Origin: Actinomycetota bacterium
GTDB lineage: Bacteria > Actinomycetota > Actinomycetes > Nanopelagicales > Nanopelagicaceae
Length of the DNA: 39,244 nt
Direction: 5' to 3'
Assembly: GCA_009702965.1 (NCBI GenBank)
Contig: WLHB01000010.1
Coordinates: 1-39,244 of the forward strand
Position 1 is the stretch's first letter, and the number at the start of each line of letters is the position of its first letter. Positions 386 through 11,285 of the stretch are shown here, one piece after another. A program made the translations under genes and the position numbers. The notes beneath the pieces were generated by a model that was not told the DNA's origin, ran no database searches, and saw nothing but the letters and a program-made list of their open reading frames with translations.

Positions 386-435
386 GCGTAAAAAGTGGCC
401 TTTTTTTGCCTAAAGGCGGAACTCTAGGAGAGTTC
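386..435 (-). terminator. Possible tyrS transcription end: two small inverted repeats
   Basis: GAACTC/GAGTTC (419-424 with 430-435) forms a 6-bp stem that contains the tyrS stop codon. A second A/T-rich repeat, AAAAAG/CTTTTT around loop positions 396-399 (within 386-409), follows 10 nt later. Neither is a classical GC-rich stem with a U-run, so termination is tentative. Read-through into the rRNA operon is possible. Confidence 0.3.
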
Positions 436-1689
436 TACGGCGGCTAGATCGCGCTTACCTTTTCGCAAAACTGCATATTTTCCGCATAAAAAGTGGCTTT
501 TCTCGAGGCGGAAATCCTCTCCCGAAATCTTCTCATTATTGAGATATGCGCCACCTTCTTTAACGATGCGGCGAGCAGCAGATTTGGAGTCAACTACCCC
601 TGCAGCTGCTAGTAGATCGACCCATGTGGGAATTTCATCCTTTGCCGAAATCTGAACACGAGGTAATTCACTTAAGGCACTCGCTAACGTTTTCTCATCG
701 AGTGAGTTGAGATCTCCTTGACCGAAGAGAGCCTTAGCGGCTTCTTCAACGCGTGCAGATGTTTGCTCGCCATGGATAAGAGTGGTGAGTTCACGAGCCA
801 AGGATCGATGTGCGTTGCGTGCTCCTGGATTCTCGTTATGTTCTTTCTCGAGCTCTTCAATCTCTTGGCGAGACTTAAATGAAAATACTTTCAAGAAATT
901 GATTACATCTTTATCGTCTGAATTCAACCAGTACTGGAAAAAGGCATACGGCGATGTCATCTCTGGATCTAACCAAACACTTCCACCTGCAGTCTTTCCA
1001 AATTTGGTTCCATCTGCTTTGGTAAGAAGTGGAACTGTAAAAGCGTGTCCACTCCCGCCTTCTACGCGACGAATTAAATCTAGACCAGCAACAATATTGC
1101 CCCACTGATCTGATCCCCCGAGTTGCAATGTGCACTTGTTGCGACGGTAAAGCTCAAGGTAATCAAATGCTTGTAGTACCTGATACGAAAATTCTGTATA
1201 TGAAATGCCACCTTCAAGACGGTTGGCTACAGAATCTTTTGAGAGCATTTGATTGACACTAAAGTGCTTACCGATATCTCGCAGAAATTCAATGGCAGAA
1301 AGTGGTGAAGTCCAATCAAGGTTATTTACGACAACAGCTGGATTCGCAGCCACTTTAAAGTCGAGAACTGAAGAAACTTGCAGCTTGATTCGATTGACCC
1401 ATTGCTCAACTATTTCGCTGCTATTAAGACTGCGCTCTTCATTACGACCGCTGGGATCGCCGACCAAGCCGGTGGCTCCCCCAACCAGTGCGATGGGATG
1501 GTGACCTGCCAATTGAAAGCGACGAAGAACAAGAAGGACTACGAGGTTACCCACATGGATACTCGGTGCAGTGGGATCAAAGCCAATGTAGAGCGTTATT
1601 GGCTTCTCTAGGGCTGTTGCAAGTTCCTTCTCATCGGTGGTCTGTGCAATAAGCCCACGCCAGCGCAGGTCATCAAGAAATTGACTCAT
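424..1689 (-). CDS. tyrS: Tyrosyl-tRNA synthetase
   Basis: Cytoplasmic class I aminoacyl-tRNA synthetase that attaches tyrosine to tRNA-Tyr using ATP. The 421-residue protein has the HIGH-type motif HVGN at residues 45-48, the tyrosine-site motif with GGSDQWGN near 191-198, the KMSKS-type loop as KFGKT at 229-233, and a C-terminal S4 RNA-binding domain from about residue 355. Length is normal for bacterial TyrRS. The ATG at 1689 overlaps the argH stop (ATGA), so tyrS is the last gene of the arg transcription unit and is probably translationally coupled to argH. An rRNA operon follows downstream. The product is clear from motifs. Confidence 0.97.
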   Translation of the reverse strand: MSQFLDDLRWRGLIAQTTDEKELATALEKPITLYIGFDPTAPSIHVGNLVVLLVLRRFQLAGHHPIALVGGATGLVGDPSGRNEERSLNSSEIVEQWVNRIKLQVSSVLDFKVAANPAVVVNNLDWTSPLSAIEFLRDIGKHFSVNQMLSKDSVANRLEGGISYTEFSYQVLQAFDYLELYRRNKCTLQLGGSDQWGNIVAGLDLIRRVEGGSGHAFTVPLLTKADGTKFGKTAGGSVWLDPEMTSPYAFFQYWLNSDDKDVINFLKVFSFKSRQEIEELEKEHNENPGARNAHRSLARELTTLIHGEQTSARVEEAAKALFGQGDLNSLDEKTLASALSELPRVQISAKDEIPTWVDLLAAAGVVDSKSAARRIVKEGGAYLNNEKISGEDFRLEKSHFLCGKYAVLRKGKRDLAAVELS

Positions 1690-3113
1690 GCGCTCATCAT
1701 GCCTGAAAAGGCCTTGGACTTGGCGGAGAAATTCGCTTCAAACGCGCTGACTTCACTCTTGAGAATAGCCAGTTGGCGACCAAGGGCGGCAGGGGCAGTT
1801 CCACCATAGGTAGTGCGCGAATTGAGGGCGCCCTCGACTGTGAGCACGCCACGGATCTCGGGAGTAAGTGAAGGATGGATAGCAGTGAACTGCGCATCTG
1901 AAATTTCATGAAGTTCGATCTGGTTCTTTTCAGCTAGTGCAACACACTTTCCAGCCGCTTCATGAGCCATCGCAAAAGGAATATGTGCGCGAACGAGAAA
2001 GTCTGCAATCTCTGTTGCTAATGAATATCCGGTGGGGGCTGACGCAGCCATCTTGTCACGATCGAATTCAGTCGTGGCGACCATTCCCGCTACTGCTGGC
2101 AGAACGAGTGCCAAAGTATCAAATGAATCGAAGAGCGGTTCTTTATCCTCCTGGAGGTCGCGATTGTAAGCAAAAGGTAGCCCCTTAAGCATGGTGAGAA
2201 CTCCTGTGAGATTTCCAACCAGTCTTCCAGCTTTTCCACGCGCTAGCTCTGCCATATCTGGATTCTTCTTCTGCGGCATGATCGACGAACCAGTGGAGTA
2301 AGAATCTGACACCTTCGCCCATCCGAATTCAGTAGTTGCCCAAATGCACCACTCTTCACCGATACGTGAGAGATGGACTCCAACCATTGAAATGATAAAG
2401 AGAGCCTCGGCAACGAAATCTCGATCCGAGACACCATCGATGCTATTTCCGGCACTCTTTTTAAAACCTAGCGCGGTTGCAGTCGCCTCTGGTGATAACG
2501 GTAGCGAAGATCCGGCAAGTGCTCCTGAACCTAACGGGCTGACCGAAGTTCTGATAAACCAATCATCAATACGATCTAGATCTCGATTCAGTGCATGTAC
2601 ATGTTTTGCAAGTTCGTGCCCAAAAAGCACAGGCTGCGCATGCTGCATATGAGTAAAGCCCACTGCAGGCGCATCAGAGTATTCCTCAGCTTTTGCCACA
2701 AGTGCTTGCTGTAAATGAATGATCTTTTCAGCTGTTGCAAGCATTGCATCCATTGCATAGAGACGAAGATCCGTCGCCACCTGATCATTGCGAGAACGAC
2801 CCGCGCGAAGTGATCCGCCAATCTCTCCCAACTTCTCTGTCAGGCCTCTCTCCAGTGCAGAATGAACATCCTCATCAGATTCGTTGTACCTAAAGGCACC
2901 CGTTGCAACCTCGTGGGTTAGCTCAAGCAGTGCCGCACGAATCTTCGCGGAGACCTCAGGGGTCAATAACCCAGATGACTCCAAGACAGCAAGGTGCGCC
3001 AGAGAGGAACGTAGGTCATATGGTGCAAGACGCCAATCGAAATTAACGCTACGTGAAAGTGCAAAAACAGCATCTGCTGGTTCCTCTGAAAATCTTCCGC
3101 CCCACAGTGACAT
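1686..3113 (-). CDS. argH: Argininosuccinate lyase
   Basis: Last step of arginine synthesis: cleaves argininosuccinate to arginine and fumarate, in the cytoplasm. The 475-residue protein begins MSLWGGRFSE, as is typical for the family. An upstream extension of 42 codons is open but would overlap argR and does not look like ArgH. The start at 3113 follows AGAAGG about 7 nt upstream and lies 4 nt after the argR stop. The fumarate lyase signature GSSIMPQKKNP is at residues 275-285 and the catalytic-His segment THMQHAQP at 154-161. The gene ends in an ATGA overlap with tyrS. argG, the usual partner, is not adjacent. Confidence 0.96.
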   Translation of the reverse strand: MSLWGGRFSEEPADAVFALSRSVNFDWRLAPYDLRSSLAHLAVLESSGLLTPEVSAKIRAALLELTHEVATGAFRYNESDEDVHSALERGLTEKLGEIGGSLRAGRSRNDQVATDLRLYAMDAMLATAEKIIHLQQALVAKAEEYSDAPAVGFTHMQHAQPVLFGHELAKHVHALNRDLDRIDDWFIRTSVSPLGSGALAGSSLPLSPEATATALGFKKSAGNSIDGVSDRDFVAEALFIISMVGVHLSRIGEEWCIWATTEFGWAKVSDSYSTGSSIMPQKKNPDMAELARGKAGRLVGNLTGVLTMLKGLPFAYNRDLQEDKEPLFDSFDTLALVLPAVAGMVATTEFDRDKMAASAPTGYSLATEIADFLVRAHIPFAMAHEAAGKCVALAEKNQIELHEISDAQFTAIHPSLTPEIRGVLTVEGALNSRTTYGGTAPAALGRQLAILKSEVSAFEANFSAKSKAFSGMMSA

Positions 3114-3117
3114 TGTT

Positions 3118-3612
3118 CTACCTTCTCTTCTTAGCTCTAGTTTTTCCTGCAAATACCAGAAGTTCGCGCGCAAGTGCACTACCGCCATTGGCGTTCTTTG
3201 ATACAACAAGGACAGTGTCGTCACCTGCAATTGTTCCAATGATTTCTTTTATTCCTGAATGATCAAGAGAACTAGCAAGTAATTGCGCACCTCCTGGTGG
3301 CGTGCGAACTACTGCAAGGTTTCCACTGGAATCAACGCTCAAAATCAATTCCTGTGGCAATGGCATAGATCGTGCAAGAGAGGCGTCGCTATCATCGGAG
3401 ATCGAATACACCATTTCGCCTTTGTGATTTCGCATGCGAACTGCCCCGATCTCTTCAATATCTCTACTAGCGGTGGCCTGAGTGACGGCATAACCAGCCT
3501 TTTTGAGAGCTTGCACTAGATCCTCCTGGCTATGGATTCGCCCAGAATTTATCGCTGCAATTGCTGCAGAACGACGTGCCGATACCGTATTAATCGCTTG
3601 AACTTTAGCCAT
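3118..3612 (-). CDS. argR: Arginine repressor ArgR
   Basis: Arginine-responsive DNA-binding regulator. The 164-residue protein starts MAKVQAINTV and has an N-terminal winged helix-turn-helix (about residues 5-70, with QATASRDIEEI as the recognition segment) and a C-terminal arginine-binding/hexamerisation domain with GTIAGDDT. The ATG at 3612 has AGAGG 6 nt upstream and overlaps argD by 8 nt. An in-frame TTG at 3618 is a less likely start. It sits inside the operon it probably controls. The best operator candidate is the inverted repeat before argC at 6614-6643. Confidence 0.95.
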   Translation of the reverse strand: MAKVQAINTVSARRSAAIAAINSGRIHSQEDLVQALKKAGYAVTQATASRDIEEIGAVRMRNHKGEMVYSISDDSDASLARSMPLPQELILSVDSSGNLAVVRTPPGGAQLLASSLDHSGIKEIIGTIAGDDTVLVVSKNANGGSALARELLVFAGKTRAKKRR

Positions 3613-4780
3613 GATCAACCTCTTTCAGAACTTTTTTGAAAGTTGTAATAAATTTATCAATCTGAGATGTTGTGACAATGAGTGGCGGAGCGATTCGAAT
3701 CGTTCTTTCGTTGGCTGCATTAACGATTACACCAGCGCCCAGCATCGCATTAGCAAGTTCCTTGGCTATAGGAGAGGACAACTCAATACCTAAAAGAAGT
3801 CCTCTTCCTCGAATGTCGGCAACTCCTGGCGTAGACGACAGGCCCTTCTTGATTTTTCTCTCAAATACTTTTGCAGATTGCATCAGCTTCTTATTTTCAA
3901 TGACATCAAGGACCGCATTTGCCGCAGCACATGCCACGGGATTTCCACCAAACGTTGTTCCATGGTCGCCAGGCTGTAGCAATTGGGCCGCTCTGCCATA
4001 AGCGATCGTGGCCCCCAGTGGTAATCCCCCACCAATGCCCTTTGCCAAGGTAACGACATCAGGGTGAACATTCTCGTGTTCGAAACCAAACCATTGGCCA
4101 GTTCTTCCGATACCGGTTTGAACGCAATCGAAGACTAAGAGCGCGCCAACACGATCGCAGATGGCTCGCAGTCCAGCCAAATAGCCATCCTCTGGAGTAA
4201 TCACTCCGGCTTCACCCATGATCGGTTCGACTATCACCATCGCTGTCTTCTTTGACACCGCGCGAGACATCGCCGATAGATCTCCGTATGGAACGTGAGA
4301 AATTCCTTTGAGTAAAGGTGTGAATGGTTCGCGCTTTGATGGCTGGCCGGTCATAGATAGAGCACCCATCGTGCGACCATGAAAAGATCCCTGTGTTGCA
4401 ACGATGCGAGATCTTCCGGTACGCCGTGAGATTTTAAGCGCCGCTTCATTTGCTTCTGCACCGGAGTTACAGAAAAAGACACGAGCGTTGGAATCGCCTG
4501 TCATTTTCTGCAAGCGAGAGGCGAGCAGAAGGCCTTGCGGATGTGCAAAGAAATTGCTGACATGAGCAAGGGTTGAGATCTGCTTTGTCACCGCCTTGGT
4601 TACAGCAGGGTGCGCATGACCGAGAACATTTGTCGCGATACCCGCAAGAAAATCTAAGTAAGTCCTACCTTGATCATCTGTGAGAACGCACCCTTTGCCG
4701 CTTACAAAAGTGCGTGACGGAGTTCCATAATTGGTCATCATGACGTCGTCCCACGTCAAGACTGCGCTCTGTTTTCTCAT
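3605..4780 (-). CDS. argD: Acetylornithine aminotransferase
   Basis: PLP enzyme that converts N-acetylglutamate semialdehyde to N-acetylornithine with glutamate as amino donor. The 391-residue class III aminotransferase has PLP-binding NSGAEANE at 105-112, GSFHGRT at 131-137, the glutamate gate in GEAGV at 189-193, and the Schiff-base lysine in TLAKGIGGG at K247. The motif normally written D-E-V-Q-T-G reads D-C-V-Q-T-G here (Cys219, codon TGC at 4124-4126), which departs from the class III signature. The ATG overlaps the argB stop (ATGA), and the 3' end overlaps argR. Function is probably intact; the Cys substitution is the oddity. Confidence 0.95.
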   Translation of the reverse strand: MRKQSAVLTWDDVMMTNYGTPSRTFVSGKGCVLTDDQGRTYLDFLAGIATNVLGHAHPAVTKAVTKQISTLAHVSNFFAHPQGLLLASRLQKMTGDSNARVFFCNSGAEANEAALKISRRTGRSRIVATQGSFHGRTMGALSMTGQPSKREPFTPLLKGISHVPYGDLSAMSRAVSKKTAMVIVEPIMGEAGVITPEDGYLAGLRAICDRVGALLVFDCVQTGIGRTGQWFGFEHENVHPDVVTLAKGIGGGLPLGATIAYGRAAQLLQPGDHGTTFGGNPVACAAANAVLDVIENKKLMQSAKVFERKIKKGLSSTPGVADIRGRGLLLGIELSSPIAKELANAMLGAGVIVNAANERTIRIAPPLIVTTSQIDKFITTFKKVLKEVDHG

Positions 4781-5565
4781 ACGCTGACCAACGTTCCACC
4801 AGTATTTTCTAACGCTAAAGCGAAGGCCTCGGGATCTCTACCATCGATGATTCTGACAGCACGAGCTCCGCCATCAATGGCTTCTAAGCAGGCAGCAACT
4901 TTCGGTGACATTCCATCTGCAAAGGAATCCTTGATGCTAAATAATTCGTCACGGGAAATTGATGAGATAAGTGATCCACGATCTGGCCAGTTGCGATATA
5001 TACCTGGCACATCTGTCATGACTATAAGCGCCATCGCATCAAGTGCGCCCGCAATCGCAGCAGCTACTAGGTCTCCATTTACATTAAGCGCACCAGTTTC
5101 ATCGCTGTTTGACGCTACAGGTGAAACAACCGGAACCTTTCCCTGCTCTAACAACGAAAGAATAGGAGCGATATCAACGGCGGTGATTCGACCAACGAAT
5201 CCGAGATCAACCGAAGTACCGTCGACCAAACGAGTCAAAGTTTCGGCTTTGATGATTGTGCGCCCAGAAAGAGATTCAGCTGGGATTGAATGAGCGATCA
5301 GCGCCGCTGCCACTGCAGGACCCACCTGCCTAGCAAGCACTTCTTCGGCTACCTCAAGGGTGGCCGAATCTGTATAGCGAAATCCACCGATGAAGCGCGG
5401 CGTTATTCCACGGGCAACGAGTTCAGCGTTGACCTGCGGTGCACCTCCGTGGACGACTACAACACTCAAATTCTTTGCAAGGGCTTGGCTCAGCGCTTTC
5501 GCGAAAAGGCCCGAGTCATCAGACATAGCGTGACCGCCATACTTCACAACGAGTGTCGTACTCAT
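4777..5565 (-). CDS. argB: N-acetylglutamate kinase, short form
   Basis: Phosphorylates N-acetylglutamate, the second step of arginine synthesis. The 262-residue amino-acid kinase fold has the N-terminal KYGGHAM loop (K8, usually KYGGNAM), HGGAPQVN at 39-46 (usually HGGGPQ), and substrate-site GFRYTD at 61-66. It lacks the N-terminal helix of arginine-inhibited NAG kinases and ends in NTGGTLVSV rather than the IFTDxGxGT type of tail seen in inhibited enzymes. Length and termini are more like the arginine-insensitive E. coli enzyme. The start at 5565 overlaps the argC stop (ATGA). No argJ lies between argC and argB. Confidence 0.95.
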   Translation of the reverse strand: MSTTLVVKYGGHAMSDDSGLFAKALSQALAKNLSVVVVHGGAPQVNAELVARGITPRFIGGFRYTDSATLEVAEEVLARQVGPAVAAALIAHSIPAESLSGRTIIKAETLTRLVDGTSVDLGFVGRITAVDIAPILSLLEQGKVPVVSPVASNSDETGALNVNGDLVAAAIAGALDAMALIVMTDVPGIYRNWPDRGSLISSISRDELFSIKDSFADGMSPKVAACLEAIDGGARAVRIIDGRDPEAFALALENTGGTLVSV

Positions 5566-6590
5566 ATTCCAATTCCTTGAACGCTCAACCCCGCAGTGGC
5601 ATCAAGGCCACACATTATGTTCGCGTTTTGAACCGCTTGACCAGCAGCACCTTTGCCCAGATTATCAATTGCAATACTGACTATTGCGCGCTGAGTGTGG
5701 CTATCTACTGCAACTTGAAGGTGCGCAGAATTGCTTCCATACACCGAATGAGTGGCAGGCATTTCACCTTCAGGTAGCACTGAGAGGAAGTGTTGATCTT
5801 CGTAATAGCGAGAAAAGTGGTTGCGCAGCTCGTCGGAGGTAATGAGGTGATCGAGCTTGACCGTGATTGTTGCAAGTATTCCTCGCACCATTGGTGCAAG
5901 CATTGGAGTAAATGAAATTCGCACATCTTTGCCTGTCGCCTGCGAAACACATTGCTCAATCTCAGGAGTGTGCTGATGCACTCCCCCAAATTTATAGGAT
6001 GACATTGAGCCCATGATTGCACTCGCGAGAAGGTTACTTTTTACCGAACGTCCCGCACCCGATGTTCCAGATGCAGCGACCACGACCACATCTGTCAGAT
6101 CTGCAAAGTGAGCAAGAGGTGTAATTGCTAGAGCGGCAGCGGTGGCGTAACACCCTGGGTTAGCAATCTTCTCTGCTTCCTTGATCTTGGCAAACTGTCC
6201 TTTGATTTCTGGCAGGCCATAGACCCACTGGCCAGCATGCTTCCCACCGTAATACGTTGCCCACGCGGTTGGATCTTCCAGCCTGAAGTCAGCACCAATA
6301 TCCACAAATTTCATCATTGGTTTTGTAGCGACGATAGCTTCTACTGCAGCTGCAGATTCACCATGCGGAAGTGCGAGGAAAACAAGATCGCAGTCAATGA
6401 AAAGCTCTGGCGAAAACGGAGAGAAACGTTGACTGCTATACGAACCAAGGTGTGGATGCAAAGATGTGATCAGCTCCCCCGCATTCGAATGAGCTGTAAT
6501 TGCAACGGTAGAGAAGGTTGGATGCTCCGAGAGAATGCGCAGCAATTCACCCCCGGCATATCCGCTCGCCCCAACAACACCAATTTTCAT
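5562..6590 (-). CDS. argC: N-acetyl-gamma-glutamyl-phosphate reductase
   Basis: NADPH-dependent reduction of N-acetylglutamyl phosphate to the semialdehyde. The 342-residue protein begins MKIGVVGASGYAGGELLR with a GxxGYxG Rossmann motif, and the catalytic cysteine lies in NPGCYAT. The ATG at 6590 is preferred to a reading frame opening 12 codons upstream because homologs start here and a -10 hexamer, TAGACT, lies 7 nt before it; there is no Shine-Dalgarno site. It heads the argC-argB-argD-argR-argH-tyrS unit, which has lost argJ, argF and argG relative to common actinobacterial arg clusters. It is probably repressed by ArgR through the inverted repeat upstream. Confidence 0.96.
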   Translation of the reverse strand: MKIGVVGASGYAGGELLRILSEHPTFSTVAITAHSNAGELITSLHPHLGSYSSQRFSPFSPELFIDCDLVFLALPHGESAAAVEAIVATKPMMKFVDIGADFRLEDPTAWATYYGGKHAGQWVYGLPEIKGQFAKIKEAEKIANPGCYATAAALAITPLAHFADLTDVVVVAASGTSGAGRSVKSNLLASAIMGSMSSYKFGGVHQHTPEIEQCVSQATGKDVRISFTPMLAPMVRGILATITVKLDHLITSDELRNHFSRYYEDQHFLSVLPEGEMPATHSVYGSNSAHLQVAVDSHTQRAIVSIAIDNLGKGAAGQAVQNANIMCGLDATAGLSVQGIGI

Positions 6591-6597
6591 GGAAATG

Positions 6598-6626
6598 AGT
6601 CTATCAGAGGATCTATAATTATGCAA
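6598..6626 (-). promoter_or_regulatory. argC promoter, predicted to give a leaderless mRNA
   Basis: The minus strand has -35 TTGCAT (6621-6626), a 17-base spacer and -10 TAGACT (6598-6603). The argC ATG begins 7 nt after the -10, so transcription should start at or next to the start codon. The -35 lies inside the inverted repeat annotated as the operator. Confidence 0.6.
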
Positions 6627-6643
6627 TCATCTGCATATTTATA
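6614..6643. promoter_or_regulatory. Candidate ArgR operator (ARG box) before argC
   Basis: A near-perfect inverted repeat: TATAATTATGCA (6614-6625), spacer ATCATC, TGCATATTTATA (6632-6643), with 11 of 12 arm positions matching. The A/T-rich arms with TGCAT cores look like ARG boxes in general form. It overlaps the argC -35 hexamer and the pheT stop codon. Binding by the local ArgR is inferred, not shown. Confidence 0.55.
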
Positions 6644-9095
6644 CAGTACGGAGAACTGCCCCCGTGGCTTTCGCAGCTGCTGCAACGGCTGACTCACGCA
6701 TCGCAGCGACTTCTGGTCCCGTAAGAGTTCGATCAGGGGCACGAAACACGAGCGAAAACGCCAGAGAAATCTTGCCATCGCCTAGCTTGTCGTAGCGATC
6801 AAAGAGTCTGATTGATTCGAGAAGATCCCCCGCGCCAGCACGTAGCGCGGCTTCAACATCCCCTGCCGCCACCTTTTCATTAACGATGAGGGCTACATCT
6901 TGAAGGGCTGCAGGCATAGTTCCGACAGTTGTAGGTCGCACACGTGGAGAATCAGGTAAAGCACTCAACGCAACTGCGAAGGCGGCACTTCGTGCGGGTA
7001 AGCCATACTTGGCGATAATTCTTGGATGTAATTCTCCGGCGTGAGCAACGGGCTTACCATCAACGATGAGCTCTGCACAACGACCTGGATGCCATGGCGC
7101 GAATTCGCTGCGCGCAATTGACCACTGAAGATGACATAGATCGAGAATATCTGAAGCTGCGGCAATCGCATCCTGCCACCCGTACGAACGAGCAGCTCCT
7201 TGCCAATCTTCATTCTCAACTTTACCTACGAGCAAACCCGCCACATGAAAGCCTTGTGGAGGAACACTGGCATAAATCTCGTCAATCACTTGTGAGGATG
7301 GACGAAGTCCAATCTCAGGAAATTTACCATCAGTGAGTTTCTGAGAGCTTCTAAATATTGAGCCCATCTCAAAGATTGCAAAGTCCTGTGCTCCGCGTGA
7401 GATATTTCGAGCTGCGACTTCAATCAGACCAGGCACTAGGTGTACTCGCATCAAAGGGAACTCTTCTGACATCGGATTTGCAATCTTGTAAGTCGCAGCT
7501 CTTTCACCAACAAAGCCCATAAAATCGATCGTCTCTTGATTGGTAAATGGGAAGGTCTGCACCTCTGCCAGTCCTCGAGCAGCCAACATGGTTGCAACCG
7601 CACGACGTCGTTTCTGGGTAGATGTTAATGATGCGTGAACAGGTCGTGGAGGAAGCACAGATGGAATGGCGTCATAACCGATCATGCGCGCTACTTCTTC
7701 TGCTAAATCCGCAGGTGTTAATAGATCCCAGCGCCACGATGGTGGATCAACTTCAAAGTTCTTCTCATCAACATCACACCCAACAGCGCGAAGAAGTTCG
7801 GCAATCTTTGCCGGTGCAATCTCCAAGCCAAGAATGCGAGAGATGTATGCGGGATCAAGCATCAAGAGAGGTGCATAACGTGGTGCGCCATCCACCACGG
7901 TAGATACATGCTCTGCCGAACTATGTTCGGTGAGGAGTTGCACAAAACGCGCTGAGGCAAACTCTGCCAGAGACGGATCAACGCTACGTTCGAGGCGACG
8001 AGATGCCTCAGACGATAACTTGTGTCGACGTGAATTCTTTGCGATACATACAGGATCAAAACGAACAGCTTCGAGCGCGATTTCAGTTGTGGTCTCTGAA
8101 ATTTCAGAGAATGCGCCACCCATTGTTCCTGCCAAAGCAAGAGGTTGTTCATCGTCACAGACCATCAAATCATCTGGATGTAACTGTCGTATCTGGCCAT
8201 CTAAAGTGGTGAACGGTTGCGCCTTACCTGCGCGCTTAATTGTGAGGCCACCTTTGATTTTTGCTTTATCAAATGCGTGAAGTGGCTGTCCGAGTTCGAG
8301 CATCACGTAGTTGGTGATATCAACAACTAGTGAGATTGAACGCATTCCCATTTTCTCAATTCGGCGACGCATCCAAAGTGGAGTTGTAGCCCTAGGATCA
8401 AAATTGGTGAGGGTGCGCAGATAGAAAACGGACGCCGTCGATGGGTCGGCTATTTTTGCAGTGACACCTTTACCAGTTTCGGCAAATGTCAGATTTCGAA
8501 GAGCGTCAACTGGATCCGTAAATTTCAGATTAAGTGATGCCGCGATTTCACGTGCAAGACCACGAATACTAAGAGCGTAGCCGCGATCTGGATTGATTGA
8601 AACGTCAAAGATGACATCGTTAATCATCAGCCCTTCAATAGCATCATCGCCAATCTTCACTGTTCCTTGAGCAAAGGTCATGATTCCTGAATGATCATCA
8701 CCAAGACCGAGCTCGCGGGCCGAACAAATCATTCCATTTGATGTTTTTCCATATGTCTCACGAGCGGCAATTGCGAAATCACCTGGAAGTACGGCACCTG
8801 GAAGCGCTGCAACAATAAGGTCTCCCACAGCAAAATTGGTAGCCCCACAAATAACATAACGTGTCGCCGCCTCGCCACAATCAAGACCGACATATCGAAC
8901 TGGCTTCTTAAACTCAGTCAACTCTTCAATGGTCAGAACTTTTGCAAAGACCAGTGGCCCTGTGAGATCTGACCCCTGCTTAATTACTTCTTCTACTTCA
9001 AATCCAACACGAATGAGCCCATCTGAGATCTCTTCGGCGGTGATTGAATCTGGGATCTCTACAAACTCTTTAATCCATGACAAAGGTGCGCGCAT
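6639..9095 (-). CDS. pheT: Phenylalanyl-tRNA synthetase beta subunit
   Basis: Beta chain of the alpha2beta2 enzyme that charges tRNA-Phe, involved in tRNA binding and editing. The 818-residue protein has the N-terminal PheT fold (MRAPLSWIKEFV), an EMAP/OB-type tRNA-binding domain at about 40-150, the B3/B4 editing region at about 210-375, B5 at about 400-470, the catalytic-like core, and a C-terminal ferredoxin-fold anticodon-binding domain from about 725. Length is normal. The ATG follows the pheS stop directly (TAAATG), so the two are translated together. Its stop codon lies in the candidate ArgR operator of argC. Confidence 0.97.
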   Translation of the reverse strand: MRAPLSWIKEFVEIPDSITAEEISDGLIRVGFEVEEVIKQGSDLTGPLVFAKVLTIEELTEFKKPVRYVGLDCGEAATRYVICGATNFAVGDLIVAALPGAVLPGDFAIAARETYGKTSNGMICSARELGLGDDHSGIMTFAQGTVKIGDDAIEGLMINDVIFDVSINPDRGYALSIRGLAREIAASLNLKFTDPVDALRNLTFAETGKGVTAKIADPSTASVFYLRTLTNFDPRATTPLWMRRRIEKMGMRSISLVVDITNYVMLELGQPLHAFDKAKIKGGLTIKRAGKAQPFTTLDGQIRQLHPDDLMVCDDEQPLALAGTMGGAFSEISETTTEIALEAVRFDPVCIAKNSRRHKLSSEASRRLERSVDPSLAEFASARFVQLLTEHSSAEHVSTVVDGAPRYAPLLMLDPAYISRILGLEIAPAKIAELLRAVGCDVDEKNFEVDPPSWRWDLLTPADLAEEVARMIGYDAIPSVLPPRPVHASLTSTQKRRRAVATMLAARGLAEVQTFPFTNQETIDFMGFVGERAATYKIANPMSEEFPLMRVHLVPGLIEVAARNISRGAQDFAIFEMGSIFRSSQKLTDGKFPEIGLRPSSQVIDEIYASVPPQGFHVAGLLVGKVENEDWQGAARSYGWQDAIAAASDILDLCHLQWSIARSEFAPWHPGRCAELIVDGKPVAHAGELHPRIIAKYGLPARSAAFAVALSALPDSPRVRPTTVGTMPAALQDVALIVNEKVAAGDVEAALRAGAGDLLESIRLFDRYDKLGDGKISLAFSLVFRAPDRTLTGPEVAAMRESAVAAAAKATGAVLRTV

Positions 9096-10112: not shown

Positions 10113-10898
10113 CTAACCGTGAGAAGGCTGAGAAAGCGTGAACATTACTACCGAAGCCGCAGCTGAGAGATTCAAGCTCTCCGCCTGTCCTGACATAGGG
10201 ATTGCAACAGTTCGTGCGTTTATTGCAAGTTGCTCTGTGCTAGTTCCAGCACCTTCATTTCCGAAGATTGCGATGCATGGTCCTGTTGCACGGAAGTTAA
10301 CAATCGATTCGCTAGCGTGGGATGAGAGAACGATGCACTCGGGGTTGCCAAGTTGAGGGAGCACTTCCCTAAGTTCGAGCGACTCAAAGACTGGAATATG
10401 CCATAACGATCCAGCGGTTGATCGAACTACTTTCGGAGAATACATATCTACGCTACCCGGTGAGGTAATCACCGCTCTTGCGCCAAAGGCATCTGCTGAT
10501 CTAAGAATTGTTCCTGCATTACCTGGATCTTGAATACGATCGAGATAGATCACAAATGATTCTTCTGTCATCGATAGATCTGCTAATGAGTGAGACGGAA
10601 TCGAGCAGACCATTAGAATTCCCTGCGGTGTCACCGTTGATGCCATCGCCTGCATGACCGCATCACTTACTTCAACAACATTAACTTCTGAAGTGTCTAG
10701 TTCTGCGATTCGAGTCAGGCCCGCGGGGCTTAAGTAAAGAGTTTCTATGCCGGGACCGCGTTGCGAGGAGAGCGCTTCGCGAAGAGGCTGAATCCCCTCT
10801 GCTACGAAGAGACCTGAATCGCTTCGCTCTTTACTCCCCCGAGAACCAATAAGAGCCTTCACTCGCCCAACATGGGGCGAGTGAAGACTCTCAATCAT
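10113..10898 (-). CDS. TrmH/SpoU-family (SPOUT) rRNA methyltransferase
   Basis: S-adenosylmethionine-dependent RNA 2'-O-methyltransferase, probably acting on 23S rRNA. The 261-residue protein has an N-terminal substrate-binding domain (about 1-100, LFVAEG at 30-35) and a SPOUT knot with motif 1 DPGNAGTILRSADAFGA at 124-140, motif 2 IFGNEGAG at 211-218 and motif 3 IPMSGQAESLNLSAA at 233-247. A gene of this kind (often called tsnR or spoU) commonly lies between rplT and pheS in actinobacteria, which matches. The exact methylated nucleotide cannot be read from sequence. No Shine-Dalgarno is obvious before the ATG. Confidence 0.9.
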   Translation of the reverse strand: MIESLHSPHVGRVKALIGSRGSKERSDSGLFVAEGIQPLREALSSQRGPGIETLYLSPAGLTRIAELDTSEVNVVEVSDAVMQAMASTVTPQGILMVCSIPSHSLADLSMTEESFVIYLDRIQDPGNAGTILRSADAFGARAVITSPGSVDMYSPKVVRSTAGSLWHIPVFESLELREVLPQLGNPECIVLSSHASESIVNFRATGPCIAIFGNEGAGTSTEQLAINARTVAIPMSGQAESLNLSAAASVVMFTLSQPSHG

Positions 10899-10922: not shown

Positions 10923-11285
10923 TTACGCTGAGACAAGGCTCTTGCGAGCAAGGTCAACAAGAGTCTTAAAGGTTGCTGGATCATTTGTCGCGATATCTGA
11001 AAGTACGCGACGGTCAACTTCGATTCCTGCTGCCTTAAGTCCCTGGATGAAACGGTTGTAGGTCATTCCGTTTTCGCGGGATGCTGCATTAATACGCTGG
11101 ATCCAAAGCTGACGGAAGTCACCCTTCTTATCCTTGCGGTCGTTGAATGCATAAACCATAGAGTGCGTAACTTGCTCTTTCGCCTTTGTGAAAAGACGTG
11201 AACGTTGTCCGCGATAACCTGCGGCACGCTCAAGAGTTGTACGACGCTTCTTCGCTGCGTGGACACCACGTTTTACTCTTGCCAT
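10923..11285 (-). CDS. rplT: 50S ribosomal protein L20
   Basis: Primary 23S rRNA-binding protein needed for assembly of the large subunit. The 120-residue protein has the typical start [15 protein letters not shown], the conserved [10 protein letters not shown] segment and the [17 protein letters not shown]-type core. Length is normal. It sits 14 nt after rpmI with AAGGAG about 10 nt before its ATG. In many bacteria L20 represses its own operon by binding infC or rpmI leader RNA; whether this happens here is not visible. Confidence 0.98.

Follow-up and report, generated by a model that had tools for sequence, protein, structure and literature searches.

Several ArgR operators and leaderless promoters have been described that resemble the site analysed here. 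The argC operator of Streptomyces clavuligerus was footprinted and comprises two 18-nt ARG boxes lying 2 bp apart, and Streptomyces ArgR is reported to have bound 24 fragments, with arginine genes located at several places (PMC3293853). Operators of Escherichia coli ArgR are likewise described as two 18-bp ARG boxes, 3 bp apart in general and 2 bp apart at argR, and at the arginine genes of E. coli the ArgR sites are reported to overlap the promoter (PMC6640053). For leaderless genes of Actinobacteria, a TAnnnT some 12 bp upstream of the start codon is described (PMC3160421, PMC3898074), and mapping in Mycobacterium tuberculosis gave no −35 consensus (PMC3898074). Among the matches listed, a search of one literature collection returned no paper joining ArgR, Nanopelagic- and arginine. 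The same collection, with the terms tried, gave nothing on leaderless genes in Planktophila or acI Actinobacteria, and nothing about an ARG-box operator that contains a stop codon or shifts in register steps.

Here, we analysed a 39,244-nt stretch of a genome of the family Nanopelagicaceae (contig WLHB01000010.1; called the window below), in which an operator of the known ArgR kind appears to precede argC. The mechanism that it suggests is a textbook one; its fine structure, the sharing of letters between operator and promoter, and its 10-bp registers are the part for the specialist.

The argC gene run and its two-box operator

The minus strand of the window carries, in this order, pheS, pheT, argC, argB, argD, argR, argH and tyrS, and the gap between pheT and argC is 48 bases long. 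The features are as follows, all on the minus strand.

6639–9095, minus strand: pheT, the upstream gene (Pfam)
6639–6641, minus strand: pheT stop codon TAA, within the left ARG box
6632–6645, minus strand: left, promoter-distal ARG box core, TGTATAAATATGCA, one mismatch to TGCATwwwwATGCA
6612–6625, minus strand: right, promoter-proximal ARG box core, TGCATAATTATAGA, two mismatches to TGCATwwwwATGCA
6621–6626, minus strand: predicted −35 element TTGCAT, whose final five bases lie in the right box
6598–6603, minus strand: predicted −10 element TAGACT, preceded by TGA (the extended −10 form TGn)
5562–6590, minus strand: argC (Pfam), head of the presumably controlled run, start assigned by translation (ATG at 6590–6588)
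4777–5565, minus strand: argB, amino acid kinase family
3605–4780, minus strand: argD, class III aminotransferase
3118–3618, minus strand: argR, the presumed repressor (PF01316 and PF02863)
1686–3239, minus strand: argH, its frame as listed starting within argR
424–1689, minus strand: tyrS, sharing 4 bases with the end of argH

The true argH start is probably downstream of the listed one, and the open frame of argR starts with TTG, its third codon being an ATG that is likely the true start. The final gene possibly within the run is tyrS. The argR of the window is the single PF01316 match in its own genome and encodes both a DNA-binding and an arginine-binding domain, and the protein best resembles a solved arginine repressor (entries 3ere, 3fhz, 3laj and 3lap; E 9.2e-30). 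Wherever both genes were found, argR and argC lay on the same strand (57/57 loci).

Some features of the run are recorded here as separate observations. No argJ lies between argC and argB (window 4777–6590), and an ArgJ search of the own genome, which is 76% complete, gave no match; the other 12 genomes of the genus that were searched all matched. Among 91 loci, argC adjoins argB in 24 and is separated from it by a gene-sized gap in 67. One argC match, that of L028 (G007:C34:5120-6115), contains a single in-frame TGA, perhaps through an assembly error or because the gene is broken.

The original prediction had described a 12+6+12 inverted repeat at 6614–6643 that covers both the pheT stop and the −35 TTGCAT, with the −10 TAGACT placed 7 nt from the argC ATG, and each of these positions agrees with the sequence. 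The repeat has 12-nt arms (6614–6625 and 6632–6643) of 92% complementarity around a 6-nt spacer, the stop TAA (read from 6641 to 6639) falls within it, and the right box contains five bases of the −35 element. At up to three mismatches the repeat pattern occurs once in the window and in none of 100 dinucleotide shuffles. The interpretation given there held in part, the assignment as an ArgR-type operator being among the supported points. The single inverted repeat as described missed the outer half-sites, being the same pair shortened by two bases on either side; the conserved unit is 6612–6645, made up of two 14-mer cores that fit TGCATwwwwATGCA at 13/14 and 12/14 positions, with centres 20 bp apart. 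The two-box score of this unit was 25 of 28, compared with 19 for the second-best place in the window and 22 for the best of 300 mononucleotide shuffles. We thus find ARG-box palindromes at a centre spacing of 20 bp, positioned before an arginine gene and overlapping a predicted promoter. On this pattern the site is a tandem ARG-box operator for ArgR, to which the repressor would bind.

In its two boxes with centres 20 bp apart, its position before argC and the presence of argR in the cluster, the site is like the argCJBDR operon of S. clavuligerus and S. coelicolor, as far as that operon is described (PMC3293853). The pair also shares with the reported E. coli operators the overlap with a promoter (PMC6640053), at a centre spacing of 20 bp as opposed to 21 bp (20 bp at argR) in E. 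coli.

Conservation of the operator among relatives

Upstream regions of argC were collected from genomes of relatives and from named contigs. Of these, 108 were usable and, with 8 duplicates merged, 100 were distinct; L001 (no argC), L030 (start not aligned) and L032 (contig beginning inside argC) were left out. In a search allowing spacings of 17–24 bp, the pair was spaced at 20 bp in 98/100 regions and at 21 bp in one (L097). The remaining region, L031, belongs to a genome more remote within the class and has no convincing pair; it was kept among the 100. The boxes are conserved above what lies between and around them, as had been anticipated for the repeat arms. In the main register (76 regions) they carry 1.60 and 1.37 bits per column, against 0.54 for the inner spacer, a value mostly due to one T (1.8 bits), and 0.50 and 0.41 for the flanks. 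In a second register (20 regions) the boxes reach 1.64 and 1.76 bits per column, against 0.01 for the spacer.

Some of the contigs are titled Bifidobacterium breve or Streptomycetaceae (L036, L041, L042, L056 and L099; L032, L059, L068 and L095), yet their argC genes closely resemble those of Planktophila-like records. Those present on the ArgC tree group with these records, and their titles look wrong.

A close match, with at most three mismatches over both boxes, was found in 45 of 61 genomes of the genus, at one place in each, and a reversed control pattern had no match in those genomes. All 45 matches sit before argC, 36 by reading of the locus and 9 by coordinates. Among the remaining 16 genomes, all nine with an argC start have a weaker pair (24–25 of 28), six have no argC match and one has the argC end only. 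The pair reaches beyond the family as well: 19 genomes from other families of the class were tried with spacings of 20 and 21 bp, and in 18 of them the top-scoring pair near argC had the 20-bp spacing. In 17/19 its score was equalled by no more than 6 of 500 mononucleotide shuffles, L182 and L193 being not convincing. No ArgR match was obtained in 12 of the 61 genomes of the genus; six of these carry the operator, and in all six the contig ends before the place where argR is expected, about 4.1 kb past the argC start.

The overlap of the operator with the upstream gene is common among the 99 operator-bearing regions without being required. In 69/99 the left box contains the pheT stop, which follows a last codon GCA in 66 and GTA in 3 (GTA in the window); in 28/99 the stop comes 3–31 nt before the box, and its position is missing for L034 and misplaced for L111.

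Predicted leaderless promoter and operator registers

In the window, TTGCAT and TAGACT are separated by 17 nt, and TAGACT starts at −13 relative to the argC ATG. The placement of this −10 for a leaderless argC is borne out among relatives, since TAnnnT stands 6–7 nt before the ATG, starting at −13 or −12, in 97/100 regions as compared with 61/3500 control places. This is the placement described for leaderless genes of Actinobacteria (PMC3160421, PMC3898074), and argC transcription is likely leaderless, with a 5′ end predicted at or near the start codon.

The −35 calls for closer reading. TTGCAT agrees with TTGACA at 3/6 positions and is thus a weak −35 by textbook standards, and a simple promoter scan did not list the TTGCAT/TAGACT promoter. 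TTG nevertheless lies 16–19 nt before the −10 in 75/76 regions of the main register, with a complete TTGCAT in 63/76. The T preceding the right box is present in 75/76 regions of the main register versus 8/20 of the second (Fisher p 2.4e-9, uncorrected for kinship), where that place does not fall at −35. Actinobacterial TAnnnT promoters are reported to have little or no −35; by contrast, TTG is conserved at this place in the main register, yet its letters are shared with the operator.

As an observation apart, the scan listed a match resembling a promoter in the opposite orientation (window 6590–6619, plus strand: TGGAAA, 18 nt, TATAAT, 10/12). Its TATAAT is built from letters of the right box, and it would read antisense into pheT.

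The distance from the centre of the right box to the ATG falls into a few registers. Among the 98 regions with 20-bp spacing (L097, at 21 bp, and L031 left out), it is 8 nt in 2 regions, 18 nt in 20, 26–29 nt in 75 and 38 nt in one. TGCA-like units recur every 10 bp along the pair, and every register sets one of them at −35. Immediately before the unit so placed stands a T for unit 3 (74/75), unit 1 (2/2) and unit 4 (1/1), and the base before unit 4 is A in the other 97 regions. Because a T is found at the −35 place in three of the four registers, whichever operator unit falls there, reading TTGCAT as the −35 is supported. In the second register (centre at 18 nt), A precedes unit 2 in 20/20 regions and TTG is absent at −35; TGn before the −10 is found in 20/20 of its regions, compared with 11/76 of the main register, and the TG of the second register is also part of the box. 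The two regions whose right-box centre lies 8 nt from the ATG scored no TAnnnT, and the promoter was read there as TTGCAT, 17 nt and CATAAT, both elements being drawn from box letters. Six changes are needed to place the five register labels (the row without a pair counting as one) on the ArgC tree, with four the minimum possible, indicating few independent register shifts.

Reach and proposed action of the repressor

No second box pair was found in the own genome (76% complete). We examined other arginine loci as well. A search for argG found it in 11/13 genomes. Ten argG loci (L153–L162, one of them from the own genome; L163–L166 were outside the scan) had no ARG-box pair, nor had two loci of the carbamoyltransferase family, L167 and L168, both from the own genome. 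They were counted so because their best scores, 17–19 of 28, do not exceed that of the runner-up place in the window (19). Apart from argC, the own genome has single boxes with at most two mismatches at nine places, of which eight are within frames of at least 100 aa. Counting both strands, there are 17 single-box matches (4 at argC) versus 5 for the reversed control. The nine places away from argC were set aside as chance, though the reversed control gave fewer matches. Streptomyces ArgR is reported to have many more sites (PMC3293853), in contrast to the one close two-box match per genome here. From these sequence searches ArgR looks like an apparent one-operator repressor in the genus; single or weaker boxes may escape such a search, and carbamoyl-phosphate synthase genes lay outside the scan.

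Two side observations belong to these loci. The one of the nine single boxes outside a frame of at least 100 aa is an ARG-box-like 14-mer with two mismatches (L122, G000:C47:1002-1015). In six argG loci lacking an ARG-box pair, that of the own genome included (L153–L158; about 1435–1465 in L158), TAGACT stands 6–7 nt before the ATG, a leaderless-type placement resembling that of argC.

We put at about 0.9 the probability that the site is the operator-promoter of an argC-argB-argD-argR-argH(-tyrS) run, at which arginine-loaded ArgR on two boxes blocks initiation at a leaderless promoter. The sequence and its conservation give the two boxes with their position and spacing, the conserved −10, the T at −35, which tracks the promoter rather than the box, and the stop codon in the box. 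We infer that ArgR binds and does so in dependence on arginine, where the transcript starts, that the genes of the run are co-transcribed and that repression acts through a block of initiation. Arginine-loaded ArgR would bind the two ARG boxes, centred 20 bp apart, and would bar RNA polymerase from the −35, most of which is in the right box; the transcript would start at or beside the argC ATG. Falling arginine would release ArgR and let the run be transcribed. As argR stands in the same gene run as argC, in keeping with its predicted place in the controlled unit, it would regulate itself, and its transcription would close a feedback loop. Added arginine is reported to repress the arginine genes of S. 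coelicolor little, though they are ArgR-controlled (PMC3293853), so that strong arginine control may be absent here too.

The ARG half-site is TGAAT in E. coli and TGCAT here. This difference, together with the six operator-bearing genomes of the genus that lack an ArgR match, might point to another transcription factor. Those contigs end early, however, and the two-box geometry equals that of the footprinted Streptomyces operator as reported (PMC3293853); with argR in the same run and the site confined to the region before argC in all 45 matched genomes, a factor other than ArgR is very improbable. Even less probable is that the repeat acts in RNA, as a hairpin, an attenuator or a terminator of pheT. 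The window repeat can form an RNA fold, but the fold is no better than those of shuffles (z 0.03; 99/200 fold at least equally well), and a transcript starting at the ATG would exclude the operator from argC RNA. Full complementarity in the middle of the boxes (39/98 regions) is also less frequent than direct-repeat identity (55/98), which suits tandem protein sites. An RNA hairpin, terminator or RNA switch was rejected as a candidate on this fold and on the scan for terminators, which listed no terminator-like site between pheT and argC. Since such a site is absent from the 48-base gap, read-through from pheT into argC is possible, and the operator overlaps the end of pheT in most regions. 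ArgR might then, besides blocking initiation, act as a roadblock to polymerase coming from pheT, as the original prediction had it. In E. coli, however, ArgR over carP2 is reported to fail to halt polymerase that started 67 bp upstream, and the study concludes that it is not an efficient roadblock (PMC6640053); the claim is thus unsupported, and such a role seems unlikely.

Elsewhere in the window, a terminator-like hairpin of 19 pairs (10850–10893, minus strand) lies within the first codons of a SpoU-type methylase frame (10113–10898) and just past a 120-aa frame (10923–11285), maybe a ribosomal protein gene. A terminator and the coding start of the methylase frame may overlap there.

The register steps of about 10 bp fit either a repressor acting from one helix face or the plain need for a TGCA at −35. 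The latter explanation, in which the spacing is unrelated to the helix face and reflects keeping one of four TGCA units at −35, gains from the T that precedes the TGCA at that place in three of four registers. Against it, the 20-region register without TTG at −35 still keeps the 10-bp step, E. coli ArgR is reported to occupy one helix face (PMC6640053), and the independent register shifts are few; it stands a little short of even odds. We propose, tentatively and with no greater confidence, that the ARG-box pair forms a lattice in which four TGCA half-sites recur every 10 bp and share letters with the promoter. This lattice may have shifted its place several times, by about 10 bp at each step, a different half-site serving as the −35 in three registers and an extended −10 substituting in the fourth, with ArgR reduced to a one-operator repressor of its own run.

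For the small-genome freshwater actinobacteria, these regions offer a natural series of letter sharing between operator and promoter, with four registers and a −35 that can be traced through them. They also present an apparent minimal ArgR circuit, in which one operator would feed back on argR.
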